Positions 6,077-64,000 of a stretch of 64,000 bases of DNA are shown here, one piece after another (within the stretch, counting starts at the first letter, position 1; each line of letters begins with the position of its first letter). Location: NCBI RefSeq assembly GCF_002797815.1, contig NZ_PGFJ01000002.1:682001-746000 (forward strand), read 5' to 3'. The notes below the pieces were generated by a model. It was not told the origin of the DNA and did not search any database. It saw nothing but the letters and a program-made list of their open reading frames with translations. Both the position numbers and the translations under genes were made by a program. This DNA comes from Mucilaginibacter auburnensis (GTDB taxonomy: Bacteria > Bacteroidota > Bacteroidia > Sphingobacteriales > Sphingobacteriaceae).

Positions 6077-7120
6077 ATGTACCAACTCATTAAACCCATC
6101 CTTTTTCAGTTTGACCCCGAGAATGTTCACTATTTTGTAACGCGCAACCTAAAACGCTTTAACCGCTTTCCCGGTGGCAGCAAGTTGAGTCGTGCATTGT
6201 GGGACCTGCGGGATGACCAATTAAAAAGAGAGGTTTTTGGCCTTACGTTTAACAACCCTGTAGGATTGGCGGCCGGATTTGATAAAAATGGCGAGGTGAT
6301 CAGCGAAATGGCTAACCTTGGCTTCGGCTTTGTTGAGCTGGGTACAGTTACCCCGTTACCGCAACCGGGCAACCCTAAGCCGAGAATGTTTCGTAGTCCG
6401 AACGATAAGGCTATTATTAACCGAATGGGTTTCAACAACTTGGGGGTTGATGTGTTGGCCTCTCGCATTGCTACCTACCGTAAAAATCAACCTGAAGCAC
6501 AAAAAGGTTTAATCATTGGTGGAAACATTGGTAAAAATAAAGACACCCCGAATGAAGAAGCTGTAAGCGATTACATAAAATGCTTTGACCGCTTGTTTGA
6601 TGTGGTTGATTACTTTGTGGTGAATGTAAGCTCTCCTAATACCCCCGGTTTACGTGCCTTGCAGGAAAAAGAGCCGCTAATGAACATATTGAATACCCTT
6701 CAACAACGCAACAATAAAAACGGCATTAGCAGACCAATACTACTCAAAATTGCCCCTGACCTAACCAACGAACAACTGGACGATATTGTAGAAATTGTAC
6801 AGGAAACTAAAATCGCCGGTATAATTGCCACCAATACTACTATTGATAAATCGGGCTTAACAAATGAAGATTTAAAAACCGAAGCCGGTGGTTTAAGTGG
6901 TGCTTTGTTAAACAGCCGCTCAACTGAAGTTATCCGCTACCTTGCTGATAAGTCTAACCGCTCCTTCCCTATCATTGGTGTAGGTGGTATACACTCAGGT
7001 GATGATGCTTTGGAGAAAATAAAAGCCGGTGCGTCATTGGTACAGTTATATACCGGTTTTATTTATGAAGGGCCAGGGTTGATCAAAGAGATCAATAAAA
7101 AAATACTGTCTGAACTATGA
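6077..7120 (+). CDS. pyrD: Dihydroorotate dehydrogenase (quinone), class 2
   Basis: 347 residues. The enzyme oxidises dihydroorotate to orotate in pyrimidine synthesis and passes electrons to the quinone pool at the inner membrane. The N-terminal helix region ([20 protein letters not shown]) is the membrane-binding extension of class 2 enzymes. FMN- and substrate-binding motifs are present: [20 protein letters not shown], and [11 protein letters not shown] at about 183-193 with the class 2 catalytic Ser. The C-terminal phosphate-binding motif [15 protein letters not shown] is also present. Length is normal for class 2. The last codons and stop (ctgtctgaactatga) resemble the start of the adjacent intergenic repeat at 7121. 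It is a lone gene between minus-strand neighbours. Confidence 0.95.
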
Positions 7121-7197
7121 TTGTCTGAACTAAGATTTATAAGATTATTATAATTTTAGGATTATTCCTTAAATCTTACACTCCTAGTTCACACAAT
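7121..7197. repeat. Intergenic inverted-repeat element ('tgtctgaactaagatt' family)
   Basis: The element begins attgtctgaactaagattt and ends ctagttcacacaat, imperfectly complementary ends enclosing aggattatt-type words. Relatives occur at 25344-25390, 25712-25780 and 25865-25965. It starts on the last base of the pyrD stop codon. Confidence 0.6.
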
Positions 7198-7206
7198 GCC
7201 AACAAA

Positions 7207-7237
7207 AAAAGCCTCACCGTTTTCCGGTAAGGCTTTT
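7207..7237. terminator. Bidirectional terminator between pyrD and the 57-residue protein gene
   Basis: Stem aaaagcct/aggctttt (7207-7214 with 7230-7237) continues as accg/cggt after one mismatch. A-runs and T-runs flank both sides, so it can stop pyrD on the plus strand and the minus-strand gene ending at 7258. Confidence 0.75.
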
Positions 7238-7257
7238 AATCACAATCTTTTTAACAA

Positions 7258-7431
7258 TTATTTACCTGCTGCAATAGCTAAGGCTTCATTGTTTTTTGCT
7301 ATCTGGCTCTTTTTTGGCTCGAATGAACGGCTACCAAACTCCAGGTTAGTTGCATTTTTTAAGAATTGAACTTCCAGTCTTGAGAAAGTTTTATTTCTTC
7401 TGTCTTTTCTTTTTAAACGAGTTACGCCCAT
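7258..7431 (-). CDS. 57-residue basic protein of unknown function
   Basis: A short ORF from ATG at 7431 to TAA at 7258. It begins MGVTRLKRKDRRNKTFSRL and ends NNEALAIAAGK. It is very basic at the N-terminus, has no membrane segment and no Cys. The gene has its own downstream terminator (7207-7237) and lies just after tRNA-Cys on the same strand, which supports it being real. The size and N-terminal Arg/Lys cluster are reminiscent of small ribosome- or RNA-associated proteins, but no family is recognised, so the function is left open. Confidence 0.65.
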   Translation of the reverse strand: MGVTRLKRKDRRNKTFSRLEVQFLKNATNLEFGSRSFEPKKSQIAKNNEALAIAAGK

Positions 7432-7467
7432 GACGATTCTTTAATTTATTGAATATTTTTAACCTTG

Positions 7468-7538
7468 AGGTCGGAAGCGGATTCGAACCGCTGTAGGAGG
7501 TTTTGCAGACCTCTGCCTAGCCACTCGGCCATCCGACC
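7468..7538 (-). tRNA. tRNA-Cys (GCA)
   Basis: The minus strand folds as a cloverleaf. Acceptor GGTCGGA (5' end at 7538) pairs with TCCGACC; the T arm contains GGTTCGAATCC; the anticodon stem GAGGT/ACCTC encloses a loop with GCA (complement at 7504-7506). The discriminator is T, the identity base of Cys tRNAs. CCA is not fully encoded (TCA follows). Length is 71 bases. Confidence 0.93.
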
Positions 7539-7552
7539 CTTTTAAAGGAGTG

Positions 7553-7582
7553 CAAAAATAGCAATTATTTATTGCCTGCCAA
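7553..7582 (-). promoter_or_regulatory. Probable promoter of tRNA-Cys
   Basis: The minus strand has TATTTTTG (7553-7560, exact TAnnTTTG) preceded at a 19-base spacing by ATTG (near 7580-7583). The -7 box ends 14 bases before the tRNA, and the -33 element lies inside the 3' end of the RNA methyltransferase gene. Confidence 0.5.
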
Positions 7583-8323
7583 TTTATTTCTGCTTATTTC
7601 TGAACAAAAAATTGCAGTAGCTATGGCTACATTCAATGATTCGGCCTCACCAACGCGTGGTATGGTAATAGCCTCGGTTACTAAACGCGTAATTTCAGGC
7701 CGTAAGCCATTACCTTCGTTACCCATAACAACCAGTCCTTCAGATGCAAAGGTGGTTGAGTATATATTTTCTCCATTAAGCAAAGCACCGTAAACCGGCA
7801 TTTGGGCATCGGTTAAAACAGAGGCTAAATCAGTGTACCTTAAATTTATTCTCGAAAGCGAACCCATGGTAGCTTGCACCACTTTAGGGTTATAAACGTC
7901 AACAGTATCTTCTGAGCAAATAATATCCTGTATTCCATACCAATCTGCCGTGCGGATAATGGTACCCATGTTGCCCGGGTCCTGCACTCCATCCAATGCC
8001 AATGAAAATTTATTTTTTAGCGAAACCGGCTTTAAATTGTCCCAATCGGGTATTTTAACTACTGCCACAACATCTGGTGCTGTTTTTAAAGAACTTATTT
8101 TCTCCAGAATGGTTAATGATACTTCGGCGGTGTTTTTATTGTGCAATAATTTGCTCAATTTTGAGCCGCTTGCAGGTGAGTAGTAAATTGCCTCAATTTG
8201 ATAGGCTGAATTAACAAATTCAATAACAGATTTATAGCCCTCAACCAAAAACACGCCATGCTGTTTGCGGAATTTTTTTTGTTGTAATGATTGTAATAAA
8301 CTGATCCGGGACTTTGAAAGCAT
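7565..8323 (-). CDS. SpoU/TrmH-family RNA 2'-O-methyltransferase
   Basis: 252 residues. The N-terminal 100 residues form the L30-like substrate-binding domain of TrmH/RlmB enzymes (KKFRKQHGVFLVEGYKSV). The C-terminal SPOUT knot carries the three family motifs: DPGNMGTIIRTADWYGI, VVMGNEGNGLRPEI and ESLNVAIATAI. It would transfer a methyl group from S-adenosylmethionine to a ribose 2'-OH in rRNA or tRNA; the target nucleotide is not predictable. The start codon region is shared head-to-head with the Omp85 lipoprotein gene on the other strand. Confidence 0.88.
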   Translation of the reverse strand: MLSKSRISLLQSLQQKKFRKQHGVFLVEGYKSVIEFVNSAYQIEAIYYSPASGSKLSKLLHNKNTAEVSLTILEKISSLKTAPDVVAVVKIPDWDNLKPVSLKNKFSLALDGVQDPGNMGTIIRTADWYGIQDIICSEDTVDVYNPKVVQATMGSLSRINLRYTDLASVLTDAQMPVYGALLNGENIYSTTFASEGLVVMGNEGNGLRPEITRLVTEAITIPRVGEAESLNVAIATAIFCSEISRNKLAGNK

Positions 8324-10677
8324 ATATTATAAAAACAAACCTTTGTCGCTTTACAATATTAAGTATTCTTCTGCTCTTTATTGTTACCGGATGTAGTTTA
8401 ACCCGAAAGCTTGGCCCTAACCAGTCCCTCGTACGTAAAATCACCATCAAGGGAATGGACAAGGAATTTAGCGAGGCTGCGGCTAATTACGTTGATAAAC
8501 AGCAACAACCCAACAGCGTTGTAAACCTGCAGTTCTACTACTGGTTCAGTAAAAACGGAAAAAGAAAAATTGGCGAACCGCCGTCTATTTTAGACAGTAA
8601 CCTGGTTGAATTTTCGCGCATGCAGATAGAAAAATTCATCCAAACCAAGGGTTATTTAAAAGCACAGGTAACAGACAGCATCGTTATAAAAAAGAAAAAA
8701 GCAGAACTGGTTTTTATCACCAACCAGGGACCGCTATTCAGAATACGCAAATTAAGCGACAGCATACCTGACGGAAAAGTCCGTTCTTTATTTCGCTCAT
8801 CCTCACCCGAATTTTCCCACCTGCGCCCCGGCGGACGTTTTGATCTTGATAGTGTAGCCTATAACCGCGATGCTTTTTACCAGGTAATGAAGCGTAACGG
8901 GTATTATGACTTTTATCGCCAGTACATCAACTTTACTTATGACTCTACCTTTAACAACAGCGTAGTTGACTTAAAAATGATCATTGATAATCCGGCTGAT
9001 AAAAACGAACATCCGGTTTATACCATCAATAATACCCTGATAACCATTCTTAACAGCAACCGCCAGCCCAGCGAAAACACAGACACCATACAGGTTGATT
9101 CACAATTCAGGTTTGTTGATCATTCGCGTAAGTTTAAGCCGCATACCGTTACCGACTATATTTTTCAGAAAAAGGGCGAGACCTACAACGTTGATATGCA
9201 GACCATCACAACATCCCGGTTATCAGAATTAAACGTTTTCCGTAACGTGCCCAACCCTACTTATACAAAAACCGCCGACAGCACTAACCGGCTGAATAGC
9301 CGCATAGACATTGTTCCGCTAAAAAAGATGTCAGACCGGGTTGAAGGCGAGTTTTTATTTGCCGGCGGCCGCTATGGGTACAACATAGGGAATACATTTA
9401 CCGACCGGAACATATTTAAACAGGCTGCGATACTTCAGATTAAATTTAACTACAGTATTTTATATGCAACCGGCAATGATTTGGTAGGTTCCAGCGGCGT
9501 CACCAACCAGGATTTTAAGGTAGGGGTAAGTTTAAGCTACCCGCGTATTATATCGCCGTTTAATTTTGCCAAGCCTGGGAAATATGGGGTCCCCCATACC
9601 ACGTTTGCCAGTAACTACTCGCTTTTCTTTCAGCGCGACCTTGTTACCCGTACAAGTTTTGTTAACTCCATCACTTATGATTTTGCAGAAACAGCTAATA
9701 AAGTACACAGTATAACAGCCGGCAACATAGAGTTTTCAAAGGGCTCAATTGATCCAACTGCGCGCCAGCAATTACTTGATCAAAACAGGTACTCATATGT
9801 GTATCTGATCGGGCGTACTGTATTTACAACCGGTAGTCAGTATACTTACCAGGTTAACGGCAACCAGTTAAACAGTTTAAAAAACTTCACCTATTTCCGC
9901 GGTTTGCTTGATGTTGGCGGCAATATGCTGTCATTGGTGAGCAACGTTTTTAACACGCCAAAGGATGCACAAGGCCAGCGCACCCTTTTTGGTTATACCT
10001 TTGCACAATATGCAAAAACGGAGATAGACTTTAGGGTTTACAAAGCTTTAGGTGGTAACAGACAGTTTATTTTGCGTTTGAACCCAGGGATTGGCGTTCC
10101 TTACGGAAACAGCACACAGTTAATTTTCGAGAAGAATTTTTATACCGGAGGGGCTAATGATATTCGCGCATGGCTGCCACGTACACTTGGCCCCGGCCAG
10201 TTTAACCGTGGCACAGCTTATGGGAGCGACAACGTTACACGAGCCCGTTTAAAATATATTGACCAGTTTGGCGAGGTAAAGCTGGTAATGAATGCCGAAT
10301 ACCGTTATAAATTGGCAAACAACTTTTTCGGAACGGTTTTAAAAGGTGCAGTATTTGTTGATGCCGGTAACATATGGCGCTTACGCCCCGAGGTGGAGAA
10401 TCCGGGTGGTGAGTTTAAATTTAGCAACATTTTAGGATCATCAGCCATTGGCGTTGGTACCGGTTTGCGCTTTGATCTAAATTTCTTTGTGTTCCGCCTT
10501 GATGCCGCGTTTAAAGTAAAAGATCCTCAATTTAACGGATCAGACCAATGGGTGCTATTTAAACATACCAACGAGTTGTTCAAAAGCGGTGCATTCAAGG
10601 ATAGCTATAGCAAAGCAAACGGCGGTGAAAGCTACAATTTTATGCAGCTGAACTTTGGTATTGGAATGCCGTTTTGA
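8314..10677 (+). CDS. tamL: TamL-like BamA/TamA (Omp85) outer-membrane lipoprotein
   Basis: 787 residues. The signal ends in a lipobox (LLFIVTGCSL), so the mature protein is acylated. Periplasmic POTRA-like repeats occupy about 35-330, for example a segment with FIQTKGYLKAQVTDS. The C-terminal half is a 16-strand-type Omp85 barrel ending NFMQLNFGIGMPF with a terminal Phe. Bacteroidota have a lipidated TamA called TamL, which works with TamB in envelope assembly; this fits length and lipobox. No tamB follows in the window. The start is TTG at 8314, with no ATG before the signal peptide, and it overlaps the divergent methyltransferase start by 10 bases. Confidence 0.8.
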   Translation: MKAYIIKTNLCRFTILSILLLFIVTGCSLTRKLGPNQSLVRKITIKGMDKEFSEAAANYVDKQQQPNSVVNLQFYYWFSKNGKRKIGEPPSILDSNLVEFSRMQIEKFIQTKGYLKAQVTDSIVIKKKKAELVFITNQGPLFRIRKLSDSIPDGKVRSLFRSSSPEFSHLRPGGRFDLDSVAYNRDAFYQVMKRNGYYDFYRQYINFTYDSTFNNSVVDLKMIIDNPADKNEHPVYTINNTLITILNSNRQPSENTDTIQVDSQFRFVDHSRKFKPHTVTDYIFQKKGETYNVDMQTITTSRLSELNVFRNVPNPTYTKTADSTNRLNSRIDIVPLKKMSDRVEGEFLFAGGRYGYNIGNTFTDRNIFKQAAILQIKFNYSILYATGNDLVGSSGVTNQDFKVGVSLSYPRIISPFNFAKPGKYGVPHTTFASNYSLFFQRDLVTRTSFVNSITYDFAETANKVHSITAGNIEFSKGSIDPTARQQLLDQNRYSYVYLIGRTVFTTGSQYTYQVNGNQLNSLKNFTYFRGLLDVGGNMLSLVSNVFNTPKDAQGQRTLFGYTFAQYAKTEIDFRVYKALGGNRQFILRLNPGIGVPYGNSTQLIFEKNFYTGGANDIRAWLPRTLGPGQFNRGTAYGSDNVTRARLKYIDQFGEVKLVMNAEYRYKLANNFFGTVLKGAVFVDAGNIWRLRPEVENPGGEFKFSNILGSSAIGVGTGLRFDLNFFVFRLDAAFKVKDPQFNGSDQWVLFKHTNELFKSGAFKDSYSKANGGESYNFMQLNFGIGMPF

Positions 10678-10680
10678 TTT

Positions 10681-10766
10681 GAAGATTGGTTAGTAAAGAT
10701 AAAGACTGGTGGAATCCGCTTACTATCACAACACACTAATCTTCAATCTTTAATTACTAATCTTTA
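10681..10766. repeat. Word-repeat inverted spacer (aagattggttagtaaagat / actaatctttaattactaat)
   Basis: The spacer is made of reiterated 'agattggttagta' words on the left and their approximate complements 'actaatcttcaatcttt' on the right, so the transcript can fold back on itself. It separates convergent genes and may serve as a weak terminator. Confidence 0.5.
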
Positions 10767-11303
10767 CCCACCAAACACCCCCTTCAATCCATTCACAATA
10801 CTTTCCAAAAATGTAGAAATGCTTAAACCATTCTGATAGTTAAAAAACAAAAATATACAGAACACAATGAGTATAATGGCTATAAAGCGCTTAAACAAAT
10901 AGCCCAATAACACCAATCCAAGCGGTATACCCAACAGCAGCGCCCAGCTTACTTTTATAGGTTTTAAGCCGCCGTCTTGTTTATATATATAATACAGCAT
11001 AGCGTGGGTGCCGTTATCATTGATGTGCTTTACGTAGAAAAAACTGCTTTTATCTAACTTACGGTGGTAAAAGGCAGTACCTTTTTCAAAGCGCATTTGT
11101 TCTTCAAAGCCGTTTATGGTAAAACTGAATAAACCATCTACATCTTCGCGGATGTTCTCCAACGAGTCAACCGCTACTATGGCTACTTCCCTTTCGGCAA
11201 ACGGATTCTCTTTAACAATAAAATGATCTATGTTGATAACATCGGCAAACAGCTTTGCATTTGCACTCAGAATTAACAAAAGAACAAAAAATATCTTTTT
11301 CAT
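10764..11303 (-). CDS. Membrane-anchored hypothetical protein with signal peptide
   Basis: 179 residues. It has an N-terminal signal (MKKIFFVLLLILSANAKLFA), then an exported beta-rich domain of about 90 residues (FTINGFEEQMRF, GTAFYHRKLDKSSFFYVKH). Two close hydrophobic segments follow (about 119-135 and 139-156: WALLLGIPLGLVLLGYLF, FIAIILIVFCIFLFF), with an amphipathic Gly-rich tail. The topology suggests an inner-membrane protein with a periplasmic N-domain. No family is recognised. The gene converges on the Omp85 lipoprotein gene across a repeat spacer. Confidence 0.6.
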   Translation of the reverse strand: MKKIFFVLLLILSANAKLFADVINIDHFIVKENPFAEREVAIVAVDSLENIREDVDGLFSFTINGFEEQMRFEKGTAFYHRKLDKSSFFYVKHINDNGTHAMLYYIYKQDGGLKPIKVSWALLLGIPLGLVLLGYLFKRFIAIILIVFCIFLFFNYQNGLSISTFLESIVNGLKGVFGG

Positions 11304-11430
11304 AAGTTTTGCTTAGGTATGGGTATTGTTGGCAATAAAAATAGCTATTATTCCTTTAGTTTGATATGATACTTAACAGTGCCGCGCTATTATTGTGCGG
11401 CAACAGCGTATATTTACAAAAACACCGCTT

Positions 11431-11949
11431 ATGATTGCAAAAAAGCCCCAGGACTCTCTAACTATTATGAATGAATTGGTATTACCCAATGATACCAATA
11501 TGCTGCACAATTTGATGGGTGGCAGGTTACTGCATTGGATGGATATTGCAGCGGCCATATCTGCGCAAAAGCATTGCAACAGTTTGGCGGTAACAGTGTC
11601 GGTTGATAGTGTATCATTTAAACATTCAATTAAACTGGGTGATGTTGTAACCATTGAAGCACGGGTATCCCGGGCGTTTACCACTTCTGTTGAGGTGAGG
11701 ATGGATGTGTGGGCAGAGAATGTGCCGTCAGGCACGCGTGTAAAGAGTAACGAAGCTTATTATACATTTGTAGCCTTAGATGCCGCCGGAAACAAGCTAC
11801 CTGTACCTGAACTGGTACCTGGCACACCTGCGGAACAAGTGCTTTATGATGGCGCACTTCGCCGCCGCCAGTTGCGACTCATCTTAGATGGCAAGTTAAA
11901 ACCAAATGATGCTACAGAATTAAAGGCGCTTTTTGTGGAGAAGGAATAA
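11431..11949 (+). CDS. Acyl-CoA thioesterase, hotdog (ACOT) family
   Basis: About 172 residues from the ATG at 11431; a GTG at 11395 would add 12 residues, but ATG is preferred. A single ACOT-type hotdog domain is visible, with NLMGGRLLHWMDIAAAISA (the GG..hWMD helix with the catalytic Asp region), VSVDSVSFKHSIKLGDVV and SNEAYYTFVALD. The enzyme hydrolyses acyl-CoA to free acid and CoA in the cytosol; chain-length preference is not visible. It is similar to YciA and BFIT thioesterases. A TATATTTA sequence just upstream is one base off the Bacteroidota -7 consensus. Confidence 0.85.
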   Translation: MIAKKPQDSLTIMNELVLPNDTNMLHNLMGGRLLHWMDIAAAISAQKHCNSLAVTVSVDSVSFKHSIKLGDVVTIEARVSRAFTTSVEVRMDVWAENVPSGTRVKSNEAYYTFVALDAAGNKLPVPELVPGTPAEQVLYDGALRRRQLRLILDGKLKPNDATELKALFVEKE

Positions 11950-55849: not shown

Positions 55850-55928
55850 AGAAATATTTATCCGTTCTGCAACGTTAATGCAATAGAAGCTATACATTAG
55901 CCCGTTGATATCCCCTTTGAAAATACCT

Positions 55929-56498
55929 ATGTTAACTGAAAAAATAAAAGCGACGACCTTACAATATCATCAGGAAACGGAAAAGATATTGGTTGGTAAA
56001 ATGAAAAGCATGCGGTCGGTGGCCGATTACGCGCATATACTTGAACTGTTTTATGGTTATTTTGGAGGACTGGAGCTACTAATAGACAAACACATCAATA
56101 CCCAAAACCTGCCTGACTATACTGATCGCCGCAAAACAGCTGCACTGGCAAATGATCTGACTAACCTCAAAGGTAATTTGCCACCAAAGGCAGAAGATAC
56201 TGAATTGCCCCAGATCAACAATTTACTACAGGCGTTTGGTGCCTTATATGTTATTGAGGGGTCAACACTGGGCGGAAAGATCATCAGTAAAATGGTACAG
56301 CAACATTTGGGAATAACAGATGGACAGGGACTATCCTTCTTTAACGGCTACGGTGAAGACACCGGCAACAAGTGGGTTCAATTTCAGCAGAAACTCAATG
56401 CCATAGCTCCCACTGAAGCACAACAAACCGAAGTAATTGCTGCCGCTAATAATACCTTTGAAAAATTCAGGGATTGGATGGTGAAATTTAGTGATTAG
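55929..56498 (+). CDS. bphO: Biliverdin-forming heme oxygenase (BphO type)
   Basis: About 189 residues from ATG at 55929. The helical HO fold has a candidate proximal His14 in TTLQYHQETE and the distal-helix motif YVIEGSTLGGKII, characteristic of bacterial BphO/HemO enzymes. It opens heme to biliverdin, CO and iron. The bacteriophytochrome gene that needs biliverdin as chromophore is convergent and adjacent (56632-58854), the typical pairing, though in most genomes they form one operon. It may be cotranscribed with the AlkD-like gene. Confidence 0.85.
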   Translation: MLTEKIKATTLQYHQETEKILVGKMKSMRSVADYAHILELFYGYFGGLELLIDKHINTQNLPDYTDRRKTAALANDLTNLKGNLPPKAEDTELPQINNLLQAFGALYVIEGSTLGGKIISKMVQQHLGITDGQGLSFFNGYGEDTGNKWVQFQQKLNAIAPTEAQQTEVIAAANNTFEKFRDWMVKFSD

Positions 56499-56633
56499 TT
56501 GACTGGAGATCAGTGATTAGTTAGCTATCGTCTAATCGCCGCTCCGCTAATCTCTAATATCTAAATCAAAGTATGGTTGATTAGTTCGCTTATCTGCCTA
56601 ATCGCTATTCAACCAATCTCTGATCACTAAATC
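56494..56633. repeat. Word-repeat inverted spacer ('gtgattagttgac' / 'aatctctgatcac')
   Basis: The gap between convergent bphO and the phytochrome gene is made of gattag words on the left and ctaatc/aatctctgatcactaaatc words on the right, able to pair. Shorter relatives occur at 28233-28270 and 33231-33250. Confidence 0.55.
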
Positions 56634-58854
56634 ACACCCCTTTCTTAAACGACACAAAAAAAGTTGAGCCTTTACCAAGCTGGCTATCTACCCAAATTTT
56701 GCCGTTGTGCTTTTCAACAATACGTTTTACAATAGCCAAGCCTACCCCGCTGCCTTCTATATGCTGCACGTTATCCATACGTTTAAACAACTCAAATATT
56801 CGCGGTAGCTGTTTTATTTCAATACCTACGCCATTGTCTTTTATGCTGTAAGTAATTTCTAACTCGTCTTCTTTGCCTTCAACATGAATAGTTGGCTGGG
56901 GTTGTTCCATGCTGTATTTTATGGCATTGCTCAATAAGTTGGCAAACACCTGCGACAACATAACCGGATCGCCATACGCCACAGGCGTATTTCCCAGTAC
57001 AACTTTCAAATTATCAGTATTAAAGGCAATTTTGAGATCTTTAATTTGATCTGCAATGATTGTTCCGAGGTCAACCTCAACAGGCTTTATATCCTGCCTG
57101 CCAATGCGTGAATATTCTAACACCTCGTTGATCATGAGGTTCATTTTATCAACTTTATCATTAATGCGCACAAGCGTATCTTTCACCCGTGGTTGCAAAC
57201 TGGCATCGCGGGTTAGCAGTTGGGCATAACCTTTAATAGTTGATAAAGGGTTTTTCAGATCGTGCGATATGGTGAAGCTGAATGTATCCAGCTCTTCATA
57301 AGCTTGCTTTAGTCGCTCATTGAGCATCCTTATAGCGCCTGCTTTTTGATTAATGGCATAGGTAACTTCGGCCTTTAATCGCATAGCCGATTTGATTTCC
57401 TCATCTTGCCATTCCTGCGATTTGCCTGCAACCTGCTGCGACCATGCTTCAAATGATCTGCGTGGCGATAAGATCATGCTACCATCGCTATTTAATTCAA
57501 ATGGTTTATCGGGATTACCTGCCCAGGTAATGGTTTCAATATGCTCCGGCTTAAACCAAATAATATACTCAGCTAATTCGCGCGACAAGGTGATCACCAT
57601 TATTCCGCTGGCAATGTGCTTATATGCTACCGACTCCGAGTAGATTTCGGGCAGTTCATTAGTATAATAAAAAGTTTCGCTTACGTTATTACCAACCCAT
57701 TCAATTAATTGCGCTATCTGCTTATCATCAGGGGTTTTACCCAGCTTGGTGATATTGTTTTCATAAGCCAGTAACGCCCCCGTAGCTTCAACAGCATCCA
57801 AAAGGGTAACATACTGTTCGGTAAGCGCTTCCTCAATACTATTATCTTTTAGCATCAGCTTTGAAAGCGCGTCAACGTTAGCATTTAATTTACTCAGCAA
57901 GTATTTATTAGCCTCATCCTGCCTGAACTCCAGAGCCGATGAAAGTATCTGACCGATGAGTTTTGCAGAATCACGCGCTTTGTAATCAATAAAACGTGGT
58001 GAATAATTATGACACGCGATCAATCCCCAAAGTTCGCCTTTATAAATAAGCGATATACTGAAACTTGAATGCACACCCATATTTTTCAAATACTCAATAT
58101 GCATAGGCGACACCGCACGCAGTTGCGAATTGGTTAGATCCAAAGGCTGTTCTGCAAACTGACGCGTAGATAAAATCTTTGATGGCGTTGTAAAAACGTT
58201 CGCTATTAAACGTGTTAAGTTAAGCTTATAAAGCTCGCGTGCTTGTTTAGGAATATCAGATGCCGGGTAATGTAGTCCCAACCAGCTCTCCAGATTCTCG
58301 TTCTTAGCTTCAGCTACTACCTCACCATGCCCGTCAGATGCAAAGCGATAGACCATCACCCTGTCATAACCAATAACAGTTTTTACCTGATATGTGGTAT
58401 TATTCAACAGGGTGGTAATATCCTTGTCGGCCAGCATTTCAGCTATGGAACGACCGATCATTTTCTGTATATCTGTTTTCAGATCAGACAATACAGGTTC
58501 GAACTCAAGCAAATAAGCAGACCCAGACCGGGAAATGATCAGATTATAGCTTTCACCCTGAATATCGGTATGAAATGGGTTGGTTTGATCGAAGCCGTTT
58601 ATTTTTCCAAATGAAATGAGCTGATTGATAAAATCAGGCGGTTCATTTTGGCCTATAATACTTTCAATATCCCTAATGGATATGCCCAGCAAAACATCCG
58701 GTATGCCTTTTAAAAAAGCATGAACGTTCTCGCTGTGGTAAGTTATGTTTAAATTTTGATCTATTACAATAAGAAACCCATGAGACTGAATTTGACCAGG
58801 TATATGAATTGGTTCTGTATCGCAATTGGTTAGATCAATTGGCGTTTTGTGCAT
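56632..58854 (-). CDS. bphP: Bacteriophytochrome histidine kinase
   Basis: 740 residues in the order PAS-GAF-PHY-HisKA-HATPase. Cys11 in DLTNCDTEPIHIPGQIQ is the biliverdin-linking Cys of bacterial phytochromes; the GAF domain has the HYPASDIPKQARELY motif with the DIP aspartate. The PHY domain occupies about 320-500. The kinase His lies in SFTISHDLKNPLSTIKGY, and the ATPase has N-box NAIKYSM, DNGVGIE and GSGVGLAI. It senses red/far-red light and autophosphorylates; no receiver domain or adjacent regulator is present. It is divergent from the superoxide dismutase gene. Confidence 0.93.
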   Translation of the reverse strand: MHKTPIDLTNCDTEPIHIPGQIQSHGFLIVIDQNLNITYHSENVHAFLKGIPDVLLGISIRDIESIIGQNEPPDFINQLISFGKINGFDQTNPFHTDIQGESYNLIISRSGSAYLLEFEPVLSDLKTDIQKMIGRSIAEMLADKDITTLLNNTTYQVKTVIGYDRVMVYRFASDGHGEVVAEAKNENLESWLGLHYPASDIPKQARELYKLNLTRLIANVFTTPSKILSTRQFAEQPLDLTNSQLRAVSPMHIEYLKNMGVHSSFSISLIYKGELWGLIACHNYSPRFIDYKARDSAKLIGQILSSALEFRQDEANKYLLSKLNANVDALSKLMLKDNSIEEALTEQYVTLLDAVEATGALLAYENNITKLGKTPDDKQIAQLIEWVGNNVSETFYYTNELPEIYSESVAYKHIASGIMVITLSRELAEYIIWFKPEHIETITWAGNPDKPFELNSDGSMILSPRRSFEAWSQQVAGKSQEWQDEEIKSAMRLKAEVTYAINQKAGAIRMLNERLKQAYEELDTFSFTISHDLKNPLSTIKGYAQLLTRDASLQPRVKDTLVRINDKVDKMNLMINEVLEYSRIGRQDIKPVEVDLGTIIADQIKDLKIAFNTDNLKVVLGNTPVAYGDPVMLSQVFANLLSNAIKYSMEQPQPTIHVEGKEDELEITYSIKDNGVGIEIKQLPRIFELFKRMDNVQHIEGSGVGLAIVKRIVEKHNGKIWVDSQLGKGSTFFVSFKKGV

Positions 58855-60763: not shown

Positions 60764-61774
60764 ATGCTGCAACTGCGTGTTGAAGATATTAGGCAAGAAA
60801 CTGCTGACACAGCTACATTTTTATTAGCCGAGGCAAACGGTGCAAAAGTTCCTTATGCTGCCGGGCAGTTTATCACACTTGTTTTAAATCATCACGGTAA
60901 TGAGATACGTCGTTCCTACTCGTTAAGTTCGTCGCCGGATGAAGCTCTGCTTGCCATTACAGTAAAACGTGTAAGCAATGGCGAGATATCCCGCTTTATG
61001 TTGTCCAAGGTTAAAAAAGGCGACCTGATCAACGCCGTATCTCCCGCGGGTAAATTCACTTTAAGCAAAACAACAGGTATAAAAAACATAATGTATTTAG
61101 CAGCCGGGAGCGGTATTGTACCCGTATTCTCGCATATAAAATACCTGTTAGCAAGGCCTGAGGATATCAACATTGTTTTGTTCTACAGCAACAACAAAGC
61201 TGATGATATACTTTTTAATGAAGCGTTATCAAAATTACAAACCCATAATACGCGGCGTTTCACCATAGTAAGTTTATTGAGCAGCGAGGGTAAACGCCTC
61301 AGTAACGATTATCTGGAACAATTACTGCATCAGCACTTAGGAAATAACTTTACAAACACCCTTTTTTACATCTGCGGCCCCTTTGCCTATATGCGTATGA
61401 TCAGGCTGACGCTGCTTTTTATGGGCGTTGAGCAGGAAAATATACGCAAGGAAAACTTTGTTATAGAAACAGTACCCGTAGCAGAAAGCACAGCTGTTTA
61501 TCCGCCGCAAAATATAAAACTTCAAATAAATAACGAGGTTTACAGCATTGCCGTAGGCGAAAACCAATCTATACTGCAAGCGGCATTGCAAAATAATATT
61601 GCCTTGCCCTACAGCTGCCGCGGAGGCATGTGTTCTACATGCATTGCCAAATGCGTGTCAGGGAAAGTTGAAATGTCTGTAAATGATGTATTGATGGAAG
61701 CAGATCTTGCTGAAGGATGGGTACTAACCTGTACCGGCCATCCGGTAACAGATAATGTTATACTGCAGCTATGA
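60764..61774 (+). CDS. PaaE-like FAD/NAD(P)H-[2Fe-2S] reductase
   Basis: 336 residues: FAD domain with RRSYSLSSSPDEA, NAD(P) domain with AAGSGIVPVFSHIK and ICGPFAYMRM, and a C-terminal plant-type ferredoxin domain with CRGGMCSTCIAKC and a fourth Cys in LTCTGHP. This order matches the PaaE/Hmp-type reductases that feed electrons to oxygenases. No oxygenase gene is nearby, so its partner is unknown. Its end overlaps the convergent kinase gene by 17 bases. Confidence 0.88.
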   Translation: MLQLRVEDIRQETADTATFLLAEANGAKVPYAAGQFITLVLNHHGNEIRRSYSLSSSPDEALLAITVKRVSNGEISRFMLSKVKKGDLINAVSPAGKFTLSKTTGIKNIMYLAAGSGIVPVFSHIKYLLARPEDINIVLFYSNNKADDILFNEALSKLQTHNTRRFTIVSLLSSEGKRLSNDYLEQLLHQHLGNNFTNTLFYICGPFAYMRMIRLTLLFMGVEQENIRKENFVIETVPVAESTAVYPPQNIKLQINNEVYSIAVGENQSILQAALQNNIALPYSCRGGMCSTCIAKCVSGKVEMSVNDVLMEADLAEGWVLTCTGHPVTDNVILQL

Positions 61775-62975
61775 AAGCATCTGCTTGTTCTGCAACAGGT
61801 AATGTAAAGCAGAAAACGGAACCTATTCCCTCATTGCTGTTAACAGTTATTGAGCCTTTATGATCAGCAATAATTTTTGAGGCAATGTATAAACCCATGC
61901 CTAAGCCATTATACTTCTTCAACACCTGTTCGCTTCTATAAAATTTCTTGAATACCTGGTGAAGTGTTTCATCAGACATGCCTATCCCTTCGTCTTCAAC
62001 AGTTACAGATACTACCCCGTTTTTAACTTTTGTTCTGATGGTAATTGAGCTGCCCGATTTGGAGTATTTGGCAGCATTACCAACGATATTATTAACCACC
62101 TGTTCAATCCGTAAACGATCCAGCATAACGGTTGCATCGTTACCTAATTGAAGCGATACATTATTATTCGGAATGATCATACTCACCAGATCAACAGCGT
62201 TGGTTAAAAAGGTATTGATAGAGACATGTTCCATCTGGTAATCCGCAGTGCCGGCATCAATCTTTGTAATATCCAACAATTGCTGTATCAAAGAGTTAAG
62301 CTTAGCAGATTGTGTTTCAATTTTCTTTAAATAGAGTTGCAGTTGCGCGTTGTTTCCGCCTTCGGTCTTAATAGCCAATTGGGCAAAAGACCGTAAAATA
62401 GTTAACGGAGTTTTTAACTCATGACTGGCAACTGATAGAAATTCATCTTTTTGCTCATTTAAATAATTAGCGGCCAGCAAAGCGCTCTCCCGTTCTTCAT
62501 TTAACTTAAATAACTCATAATTGCGCTGCTTAACTTCTTCGTAAGCACTGACGGGTTCGGCTACCTCAAAATGCAGCTTTACGGCAGATATTTTAGCCCG
62601 GTCAACTTTTGCCGAGCGCGGTACCGGCATTTTCAACATTACGGTAACCCAGTCATTAGCCACAGAAACTTCTAAGGCGGGAACCAGGCGGCGGGCGTAG
62701 TCTAAACCATCGTTAACTTTGCCAAAATTATCGTCTTTCCTGAAAGTTATGCGTGCTGATAATGAATAACGTTCGCCTTCAGTTAATACCCCAATGCTTA
62801 GTTGCCCATCAAAGGTTTTGTCTATTACTTCCCTGCATACTTCTGATACGGCTGTAGCGAAGGCAGTTTGAGTAGAAATGGTTAGTCCCAGCATTTCGGC
62901 GGTCCTGATTGACTTTTTATAAGCCAATATAAGGTCCATTTCATTTTCAAGTGATATTGATACAATTGCCGTCAT
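61758..62975 (-). CDS. Histidine kinase with degenerate RsbT-like N-domain
   Basis: 405 residues. Residues 1-135 resemble an RsbT/anti-sigma GHKL domain (TAFATAVSEVCREVI, YARRLVPALEVSV), but the ATP-binding N-box and G1 box are lost. A coiled coil (about 145-185) leads to a kinase core: phospho-His in LSVASHELKTPLTILRS, N-box NNIVGNAAKYS, DEGIGMS and GLGMGLYIASKI. No membrane segment or receiver domain is present, so it is a cytosolic kinase. It follows the phosphatase gene by 6 bases. The degenerate domain may sense a stressosome partner. Confidence 0.82.
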   Translation of the reverse strand: MTAIVSISLENEMDLILAYKKSIRTAEMLGLTISTQTAFATAVSEVCREVIDKTFDGQLSIGVLTEGERYSLSARITFRKDDNFGKVNDGLDYARRLVPALEVSVANDWVTVMLKMPVPRSAKVDRAKISAVKLHFEVAEPVSAYEEVKQRNYELFKLNEERESALLAANYLNEQKDEFLSVASHELKTPLTILRSFAQLAIKTEGGNNAQLQLYLKKIETQSAKLNSLIQQLLDITKIDAGTADYQMEHVSINTFLTNAVDLVSMIIPNNNVSLQLGNDATVMLDRLRIEQVVNNIVGNAAKYSKSGSSITIRTKVKNGVVSVTVEDEGIGMSDETLHQVFKKFYRSEQVLKKYNGLGMGLYIASKIIADHKGSITVNSNEGIGSVFCFTLPVAEQADAFIAAV

Positions 62976-62981
62976 GCTCTA

Positions 62982-63998
62982 TTACTTAACCCTTGCTATA
63001 ATAACCGACATATCATCTGTTTGCCGGGAAAAATCTTTATAAATAGCCGCAGCGAGAATGGTGTTATCGCAACGGTTAATACCTGCGTGTTTAATGGTTT
63101 CCCACCTGCTTTTAATACCATCAGAACATAAAACCAACTGCTGATAGTCTGCAAAATGCATTAAATGGTCATTCATAGTGGTTGGAATGTTATGACCAAT
63201 TATTCCGTTATACGCCAATAAAGTTTTATTGTTTACCCCTCCCGATAAACGGGAAGAAATATTACCAACACCTGCTATTCTAACAGCTTTAGCATTCATA
63301 TCAAAAATAGCTACCGTACCCACTATGCCACGTGTTTTCCTGATATCCCGATGAATGTATCTGATAATATCTGCAGGAGAATTATACGGGCATGATTTAA
63401 ACGACTTAACCGCTTCGTTCACAGCCAAATTAGCTTCCGGACCATGACCCAAACCATCGGCAACCAGTAATTTGATCATGCCATCTGTAGCCTTTACATA
63501 ATGTCCGTCTCCACTTGTGGTCTCTCCAGGTTTTTTTATAACGATAGGCCTTATCTGCACATATGTTTTCAACCTGCTTTTTGAAGGCTGTTTTGTTTTA
63601 TAAATACGACTTAATACGATGGTTCCCCAGCCTTTAAGTGAGTAAATGTCAAACTCGTCTGAAAAACGCTTAATGCTACCCAAACCATGGCCCATTGAAT
63701 TAGCGGTAGAGTAACCGTCTACCAGCGCTTTCTGTAATTCGGCTATTCCGGGACCGTTATCAATGCTTATCAGTTCAATGTACTCCTCACCCGGCTTATC
63801 AAAGTAGGCTACCAACAACTCTCCACCCATAGCATACTTGTGGAGGTTAGAGGTCATTTCGGCTACAATAATATCAAGTTCATTTAGCTTTTTATCCGCA
63901 ATTCCTGCCTGTACTGCAATAGCATGTATTTCCTTTTTCAGGATGGCATAGTAACTCCTGTCGGAAGCATTAAAGCTGGTATGTGTAGCGTCAACCAT
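62982..63998 (-). CDS. RsbT-like kinase domain fused to SpoIIE/RsbX-type phosphatase
   Basis: 338 residues. The N-domain is an intact RsbT-type GHKL kinase: ELDIIVAEMTSNLHKYA (N-box), IDNGPGI, and GHGLGSIKRFSDEFDIYS. The C-domain is a PP2C/SpoIIE-like phosphatase: LLVADGLGHGPEANLAV, VGTVAIFDM, LVLCSDGIKS and DDMSVIIAR, the core acidic residues of the metal site. RsbT phosphorylates stressosome scaffolds and RsbX removes the phosphate; here both are on one chain. The ATG at 63998 is used; sequence further upstream cannot be seen, so a longer start is possible. Confidence 0.82.
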   Translation of the reverse strand: MVDATHTSFNASDRSYYAILKKEIHAIAVQAGIADKKLNELDIIVAEMTSNLHKYAMGGELLVAYFDKPGEEYIELISIDNGPGIAELQKALVDGYSTANSMGHGLGSIKRFSDEFDIYSLKGWGTIVLSRIYKTKQPSKSRLKTYVQIRPIVIKKPGETTSGDGHYVKATDGMIKLLVADGLGHGPEANLAVNEAVKSFKSCPYNSPADIIRYIHRDIRKTRGIVGTVAIFDMNAKAVRIAGVGNISSRLSGGVNNKTLLAYNGIIGHNIPTTMNDHLMHFADYQQLVLCSDGIKSRWETIKHAGINRCDNTILAAAIYKDFSRQTDDMSVIIARVK

Positions 63999-64000
63999 TG

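Follow-up and report, generated by a model that had tools for sequence, protein, structure and literature searches.

A stressosome operon of Mucilaginibacter auburnensis that ends in a histidine kinase with a pseudo-RsbT domain

The DNA considered here comprises 64,000 nucleotides of Mucilaginibacter auburnensis (contig NZ_PGFJ01000002.1, positions 682,001 to 746,000; hereafter the window), and its upper end carries the closing genes of a stressosome operon in which the RsbT fold occurs on three proteins: the free switch kinase RsbT, a feedback phosphatase and an output histidine kinase (HK). The operon is a five-gene unit on the minus strand, transcribed in the order rsbR, rsbS, rsbT, a gene fusing a GHKL domain to a SpoIIE phosphatase domain, and the HK gene; it is abbreviated R-S-T-T'X-T''HK, where T'X is the RsbT-phosphatase fusion and T''HK the HK with its RsbT-like N-terminal domain (N-domain). 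This N-domain is a pseudo-RsbT, a homologue of RsbT, and is probably a docking tag. The model proposed for the operon, to which we give about an even chance, is that the pseudo-RsbT domain docks the HK on the STAS core of the stressosome, which the RsbT-fold clients would share.

A five-gene stressosome operon

A preliminary description of the window had placed two open reading frames (ORFs) six bases apart, an intact RsbT-like GHKL domain joined to a SpoIIE/RsbX phosphatase on one chain followed by an HK, and had predicted STAS and RsbT genes beyond position 64000. Both ORFs and their spacing were confirmed, they are the final two genes of the operon, and the DNA past the window holds rsbT, rsbS and rsbR, placing RsbR (STAS at its C-terminal end), RsbS (STAS) and RsbT (GHKL) side by side as a stressosome module. 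The features are as follows, coordinates above 64000 being extrapolated (window coordinate = L009 position + 54000, with rsbT at L009:9991-10407, rsbS at 10385-10792 and rsbR at 10801-11673).

61758..62975, minus strand: HK, 405 aa, pseudo-RsbT N-domain, long helix, HisKA and HATPase_c (ORF, Pfam, AlphaFold2 model)
62625..62975, minus strand: pseudo-RsbT (GHKL-fold) domain, HK residues 1-117, without the G1 box and most of the ATP lid (fold, alignment, profiles)
62367..62546, minus strand: predicted continuous helix, HK residues 144-203, from the N-domain through the phosphoacceptor H185 (model, pLDDT block means ~68-86, pTM 0.48)
62250..62453, minus strand: HisKA dimerisation/phosphoacceptor domain, HK residues 175-242 (Pfam)
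61791..62120, minus strand: HATPase_c catalytic domain, HK residues 286-395 (Pfam)
62982..63998, minus strand: RsbT-RsbX fusion, intact GHKL domain and SpoIIE/PP2C phosphatase, 338 aa (ORF, Pfam)
63594..63998, minus strand: GHKL domain of the fusion (Pfam, alignment)
62988..63485, minus strand: SpoIIE/PP2C domain of the fusion (Pfam)
63991-64407, minus strand (in the window 63991..64000, the 3' end): rsbT, free intact switch kinase, 138 aa (DNA read past the window)
64385-64792, minus strand: rsbS, STAS, 135 aa (DNA read past the window)
64801-65673, minus strand: rsbR, RsbRD_N and STAS, 290 aa (DNA read past the window)

The arrangement recurs in relatives. A search with the HK N-domain of 151 genomes of the same family found it in 28, at 30 loci including the window's own, and in 30/30 of these the module of adjacent RsbR, RsbS and RsbT is present, all five genes stand on one strand in identical order and rsbT overlaps the fusion gene by exactly 8 nt, as in the window, with a spacing from fusion to HK gene of -10 to +9 nt. 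A scan of named genomes, of which the best 80 of 204 relatives were kept (overlapping with the 30 same-family loci), gave only Bacteroidota by title, e.g. Mucilaginibacter, Pedobacter, Chitinophaga, Flavobacterium and Larkinella, and the five-gene unit is unbroken in 75 of these 80; the exceptions are L089 (rsbT split over two frames), L155 (rsbR and the HK gene each split over two frames), L115 and L128, which run into contig ends, and L150, an HK alone. By length and place L089 is the same contig as L054 of the family set, where the other four genes are intact, and the broken rsbT frame may reflect either genuine loss or assembly error. Two genomes carry two operon copies each (L054 and L077 in G012; L072 and L078 in G031). 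A profile hidden Markov model of the N-domain, run over 395 genomes of the phylum, matched at full length in eight, all of which also have T and T'X.

The remaining components keep their conserved boxes. Pfam places HisKA and HATPase_c on the HK, whose residues H185, N300, D328, G330, G332, G357, G359 and G361 are invariant in the 30 same-family loci, and by these boxes the kinase is catalytically complete. On the fusion, HATPase_c_2 and SpoIIE both score above cut-off; its GHKL domain retains the N-box Glu and Asn and the DxGxG and GxG glycines, and its phosphatase domain the metal-ligand aspartates D164, D181, D293, D328 and D329, in 30/30, as the preliminary description's account of an intact kinase domain and phosphatase on one chain would have it. 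The PDB relatives of the phosphatase are 3zt9 and RsbX 3w40. The fusion had been taken to stand in place of a separate kinase, which does not hold: a free intact RsbT is encoded beside it, and the fusion adds a further copy of RsbT. The ATP-binding boxes of this free RsbT are intact in 29/29 unbroken family rows (L054, with its broken frame, was left out of the alignment) and in 83/83 of a larger alignment. RsbS S57 and RsbR T176, S179 and S213, which we take to be the equivalents of the B. subtilis phospho-acceptor sites, are conserved in 30/30, and the genome encodes one RsbRD_N protein. The T'X fusion is not rare: a search of plasmids with it gave 107 records, and in 100 of these the match covers at least 80% of the query; three of the 25 plasmid records listed are named 'ATP-binding SpoIIE family protein phosphatase', and the frame is fused in each of the ten plasmid loci read.

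A pseudo-RsbT domain on the histidine kinase

Family and sequence searches detect little of the N-domain. Pfam gives no match in HK residues 1-150 and 0 families for the window's N-domain alone, and of 50 members so searched three match HATPase_c_2 (best E 0.0005; the score of L149, which mixes the N-domain with the catalytic domain, was not used). Likewise, a profile search of PDB sequences with the N-domain found no GHKL protein, and a single-sequence search of the PDB gave nothing GHKL beyond histidine kinases at E ~1. Despite these sparse matches, fold and profile evidence rules out an N-domain unrelated to GHKL proteins. An AlphaFold2 model made from 50 sequences has a pLDDT of 92.7 and a pTM of 0.88, and Foldseek returned for it 19 PDB matches at E<=0.001, every one from UsfX, SpoIIAB or RsbW complex entries. 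VIA-align ranked RsbW best (Z 14.1; 109 residues, 2.0 A), with SiaB (11.1), Leptospira LvrC (9.8) and DesK (8.3) in lower rows, DesK being the highest-ranked row named as a histidine kinase. By its model, then, the N-domain is a GHKL switch-kinase fold like that of RsbW and SpoIIAB.

Profile-profile comparison, made with HK residues 1-122 (its E-values being valid for single comparisons), places the N-domain nearest to RsbT domains already fused to histidine kinases. It scores 109 against eight such domains (seven intact and a degenerate one from Caballeronia), 60 against free RsbT and 28 against the GHKL domain of the fusion, whereas five controls (the HK's own catalytic domain, the phosphatase, DHp, RsbS and RsbR) score 9.7-15 with probabilities of at most 0.3%. 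The comparison with RsbT and RsbW suggested in the preliminary description is thus borne out. The alignment of the window's domain to the intact HK fusions extends through the linker (158 columns), and in the scan of 395 genomes the 12 further, weaker matches of the N-domain model were ten free RsbTs, one RsbT domain on an HK and one unassigned. Two other sources of the domain were considered and rejected: against an origin from the HK's own catalytic domain stands a score of 12, the level of unrelated controls, and against one from the phosphatase's GHKL domain a score of 28, compared with 60 for free RsbT and 109 for HK-fused domains.

What the N-domain has lost and kept was counted over 87 distinct HK N-domains in a joint alignment with 83 RsbTs. 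At the position of RsbT Gly86 all 87 have a gap, 9-11 residues stand in place of RsbT residues 81-104 (T81-T104, 24 residues spanning the G1 box and lid), and only six retain the N-box Asn. The N-domain therefore lacks what marks an RsbT kinase (N-box Asn, DxGxG box and ATP lid) while keeping the switch-kinase GHKL fold, and it could hardly bind ATP in the usual mode. The equivalents of RsbT Asp18 (87/87), the N-box Glu (86), which we equate with RsbW Glu49, Arg52 (87), Gly61 (82) and Leu114 (87) are retained. Pairwise identity, averaged over 75 loci, reaches 0.519 in the N-domain, 0.498 in the kinase core and 0.761 in RsbT; because the identity of the N-domain matches that of the kinase core although the ATP boxes are gone, the domain appears to be under selection. 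The preliminary description had called it a relic RsbT without ATP boxes, and homology and loss of the boxes stand (87/87); however, "relic" is too weak a word for a domain slightly more conserved than the kinase core and kin to intact HK-fused RsbTs. Nine of the 87 HKs exceed 500 aa, and a PAS domain lies between N-domain and HisKA in each of the six scanned.

RsbT-histidine kinase fusions in other bacteria

Histidine kinases bearing an RsbT domain occur well beyond the window's class. Ten plasmid loci were hand-picked, nine from a search with the fusion protein and one (L233) from a search with the HK, and in six of them (L224, L225, L226, L229, L232 and L233) an HK with an intact N-terminal RsbT domain follows the fusion gene: Paraburkholderia (two), Deinococcus (two, including the megaplasmid MP1 of D. 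radiodurans), Sphingomonas and Phaeobacter. At L229 the HK spans two annotated genes, and a search for rsbR found none. The Caballeronia HK (L230) carries a degenerate RsbT domain, as read from the alignment of this one locus, and its degeneration is apparently separate from that of the window's class. No HK was found at a Streptomyces plasmid locus (L231), and a plasmid search with the pseudo-RsbT N-domain itself gave no match. Within the phylum, a distant genome (G333, locus L209), in which no RsbS ORF was resolved, has R, T and T'X followed by a REC-REC-HK; next comes an HK whose RsbT domain is intact (HATPase_c_2 E 1.2e-13). The surroundings of this HK (L209:6687-13319) include, besides the REC-REC-HK, later ORFs whose translations resemble REC, REC-REC and a large hybrid kinase; together they perhaps make up a complete phosphorelay downstream of a stressosome. 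At the Paraburkholderia locus L224 a catalase HPII gene (katE, 6747-8870) is convergent with the stressosome operon, possibly a hint of a stress regulon.

A tree made without T'X domains separates 22 HK-fused domains (14 pseudo-RsbT, seven intact and Caballeronia) from 28 free RsbTs on a branch supported at 93/86 and present in 94% of bootstrap trees, though not starred by the tool. In an earlier tree the pseudo-RsbT domains came together in a single clade (100/100), whose branch, 2.03 in length, was too long for it to be placed. The simplest reading, supported but not firmly shown, is one ancestral fusion of RsbT to an HK, with the RsbT domain degenerating in the window's class. Other RsbT loci of the phylum follow a different design, since the HK carries RsbU_N and PAS domains in all six scanned (of seven loci; G184/L216 was left out); four of them (L210, L211, L212 and L215) have recognisable R, S and X, while at L213 and L214 T alone was identified. 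A LuxR-type response regulator follows the kinase in the single locus of this type with a scanned neighbour. RsbT-like matches in G196 (C10:9331-9624) and G372 (C46:9661-9945) lie in open frames of 310-311 aa and are perhaps fusions of another kind.

RsbRST(X) modules with two-component outputs, some with RsbU_N as a docking domain, have already been described (PMC9237108; PMC12143880). Those of Heinz et al. (2022), from Vibrio vulnificus and with two-component or GGDEF outputs, resemble the present operon in that a signalling protein, for instance a sensor kinase, comes directly after R-S-T-X and there is no SigB cascade, but their RsbX is a single domain and the output bears RsbU_N or no known docking domain, whereas here phosphatase and HK both carry RsbT folds (PMC9237108). 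Histidine kinases with RsbU_N, in the six loci above and in those papers, likewise bear a stressosome partner domain at the N-terminus; however, RsbU_N has four helices and is a binding domain for RsbT (PMC12143880), whereas the window's domain is a homologue of RsbT itself. RsbW, SpoIIAB and UsfX share the fold of the N-domain (Z up to 14.1) but are distinguished from it by its missing G1 box and most of the lid and by its fusion to an HK. A close counterpart is the operon DR_RS15570-15595 on MP1 of D. radiodurans, also R-S-T-T'X-T''HK plus a further HK, although there the HK has an intact RsbT domain, and a REC domain comes after its kinase part. With reference to Makarova 2001, PMC6501615 describes the kinases DR_B0028 and DR_B0029 of that organism as 'thought to be co-regulated with' an operon for anti-sigma-factor regulation, and both are listed as receiver proteins (PMC8363230); DR_B0028, which from gene order and receiver domains we infer to be DR_RS15590, was higher after vacuum exposure (PMC6501615). 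Full-text literature searches, with most subscription papers outside their coverage, found no paper on RsbT-domain histidine kinases; the operon itself is not claimed to be described here for the first time. That the output HK brings an RsbT-type domain along, which several groups have in intact form and the window's lineage as a retained pseudokinase, bears on how the signal leaves a stressosome, and the intact version in Deinococcus radiodurans R1 makes binding testable.

Output, docking and surrounding genes

In B. subtilis the same R, S, T and X components feed RsbU, RsbVW and SigB; the window's operon instead ends in an HK, and a scan of the genome, which is 99.96% complete, gave no match to RsbU_N (PF08673) at E<=0.001 (the B. 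subtilis control was positive). The RsbU_N phosphatase that RsbT would have as its target in a SigB-type output was thus not found, RsbT is left here without its classical target, and an HK bearing an RsbT-type domain is the natural output. That the stressosome acts through the HK, as the preliminary description had it, is therefore likely. Its statement that a sigma-B cascade is the usual output needs qualifying, since stressosomes feeding two-component systems were already on record (PMC9237108). As to the response regulator, 11 of the 80 named-genome loci (the best 80 of 204 relatives) have a lone receiver gene at a distance of -25 to +25 nt from the end of the HK gene. The HK of L150 (5953-7638), which has a pseudo-RsbT domain, is also adjoined by a receiver gene. 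The closest homologue of the HK-adjacent receiver in the window's own genome is C1:150716 (53%, the next 40%), yet it is a weak candidate for the cognate regulator, because the receiver family is widespread and not module-specific, occurring in 35/61 family genomes including G014, G036, G051 and G002, which have no N-domain match.

The proposed model begins with RsbR and RsbS, which would assemble the STAS core on which RsbT, the phosphatase and the HK all dock through their RsbT folds. Under stress, RsbT would phosphorylate the STAS serines and threonines, upon which the RsbT-type domains may be released or exchanged; the change at the pseudo-RsbT domain could then travel along the helix of residues 144-203 to H185 and alter the flow of phosphate to a response regulator, and the fused phosphatase, brought by its own RsbT domain, would reset the core. 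In the window's lineage the RsbT domain of the HK, having no ATP binding, would serve docking only, and the preliminary description's suggestion of a docking surface is, from the sequence comparisons, plausible. Gene order, domain homology, the missing G1 box and lid, conservation and the intact relatives in other groups are observed; what the domain docks on (STAS core or RsbT), which way the switch turns and which response regulator is served are inferred from them. Mild support for docking on a STAS protein comes from the distribution of conservation, which in the N-domain is concentrated in alpha1, alpha2 and alpha3 (entropy 0.9-1.1, against 1.8-2.9 in the strands): in the RsbV-RsbW crystal structure these same helices of RsbW contact the STAS protein RsbV, and RsbW Glu49 contacts the target serine (PMC7340262). 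Correlations of distance matrices between the parts were uninformative, as all parts of one operon co-vary.

The main rival makes the pseudo-RsbT domain a receptor for free RsbT (or T'X), with released RsbT pairing with it as RsbW monomers pair and so switching the HK, in the manner of RsbT and RsbU. RsbT is known to activate an effector through a helical linker (PMC12143880), RsbU_N, a known receptor of RsbT, sits on the HKs of all six other loci scanned in the phylum, so that the N-domain may substitute for it, and alpha1, through which together with beta1 RsbW dimerises (PMC7340262), is highly conserved. However, beta1, which supplies half of the dimer contact, shows little conservation (entropy 1.8) while the STAS-contacting alpha2 and alpha3 are conserved, and a receptor for RsbT would leave the RsbT domain on the phosphatase unexplained; docking on the STAS core is preferred, and the receptor appears rather unlikely. 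It is improbable that the N-domain is a decaying leftover of an RsbT-HK fusion that aids only dimerisation, on an HK independent of the stressosome: the ATP boxes are gone, the domain is missing from some HKs at the same position and the HK of L150 stands without the module, but the domain is as conserved as the kinase core, has invariant positions over 87 sequences and is tightly linked to R-S-T-T'X, all eight genomes of the 395 that carry it having T and T'X as well. A still smaller chance is given to phosphorylation of the HK by RsbT, with the N-domain merely a substrate or dimerisation platform; Heinz et al. (2022) suggest phosphorylation for output proteins without RsbU_N (PMC9237108), and the intact boxes of RsbT in 29/29 rows would permit it, yet the kept RsbT fold would go unexplained.

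Several observations weigh against docking on the STAS core. The conservation pattern of RsbT and of T'X is similar, if flatter, and the conserved helices may therefore be structural. The tag is dispensable in some lineages, because in Xanthomonas and Variovorax (L227 and L228, two of the ten plasmid loci) the HK that follows R-S-T-T'X has no RsbT domain, and L150 has the HK without R-S-T-T'X in the 5.9 kb upstream. The intact RsbT-HKs elsewhere show that the ATP boxes can persist, and pure docking need not be ancestral; nor is a single origin firm, as in the earlier tree G333, the sole intact fusion included, grouped with the free RsbTs (95/80). No receiver gene adjoins the HK in the window. 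Finally, docking is argued from gene order, homology and conservation. More broadly, and tentatively, a widespread class of stressosomes may use the RsbT fold as a common docking tag for switch kinase, phosphatase and HK, such that one STAS phosphorylation ejects or admits them all, with a pseudokinase tag having arisen perhaps twice (in the window's class and in Caballeronia). If true, this would explain how the signal leaves stressosomes that have no RsbU-type target; Heinz et al. (2022) did not find RsbU_N on most downstream proteins examined and could not show binding of RsbT to D1 in Vibrio (PMC9237108).

Among the surrounding genes, one named from its sequence as ferredoxin-reductase-like (60764-61774, plus strand) is convergent with the HK gene and overlaps it tail to tail by 17 nt. 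Some 3 kb from the operon, a heme oxygenase gene (55905-56498, plus strand) lies beside a bacteriophytochrome HK (56632-58854, minus strand; PAS_2-GAF-PHY-HisKA-HATPase_c), and the two are likely a pair of chromophore maker and photoreceptor.

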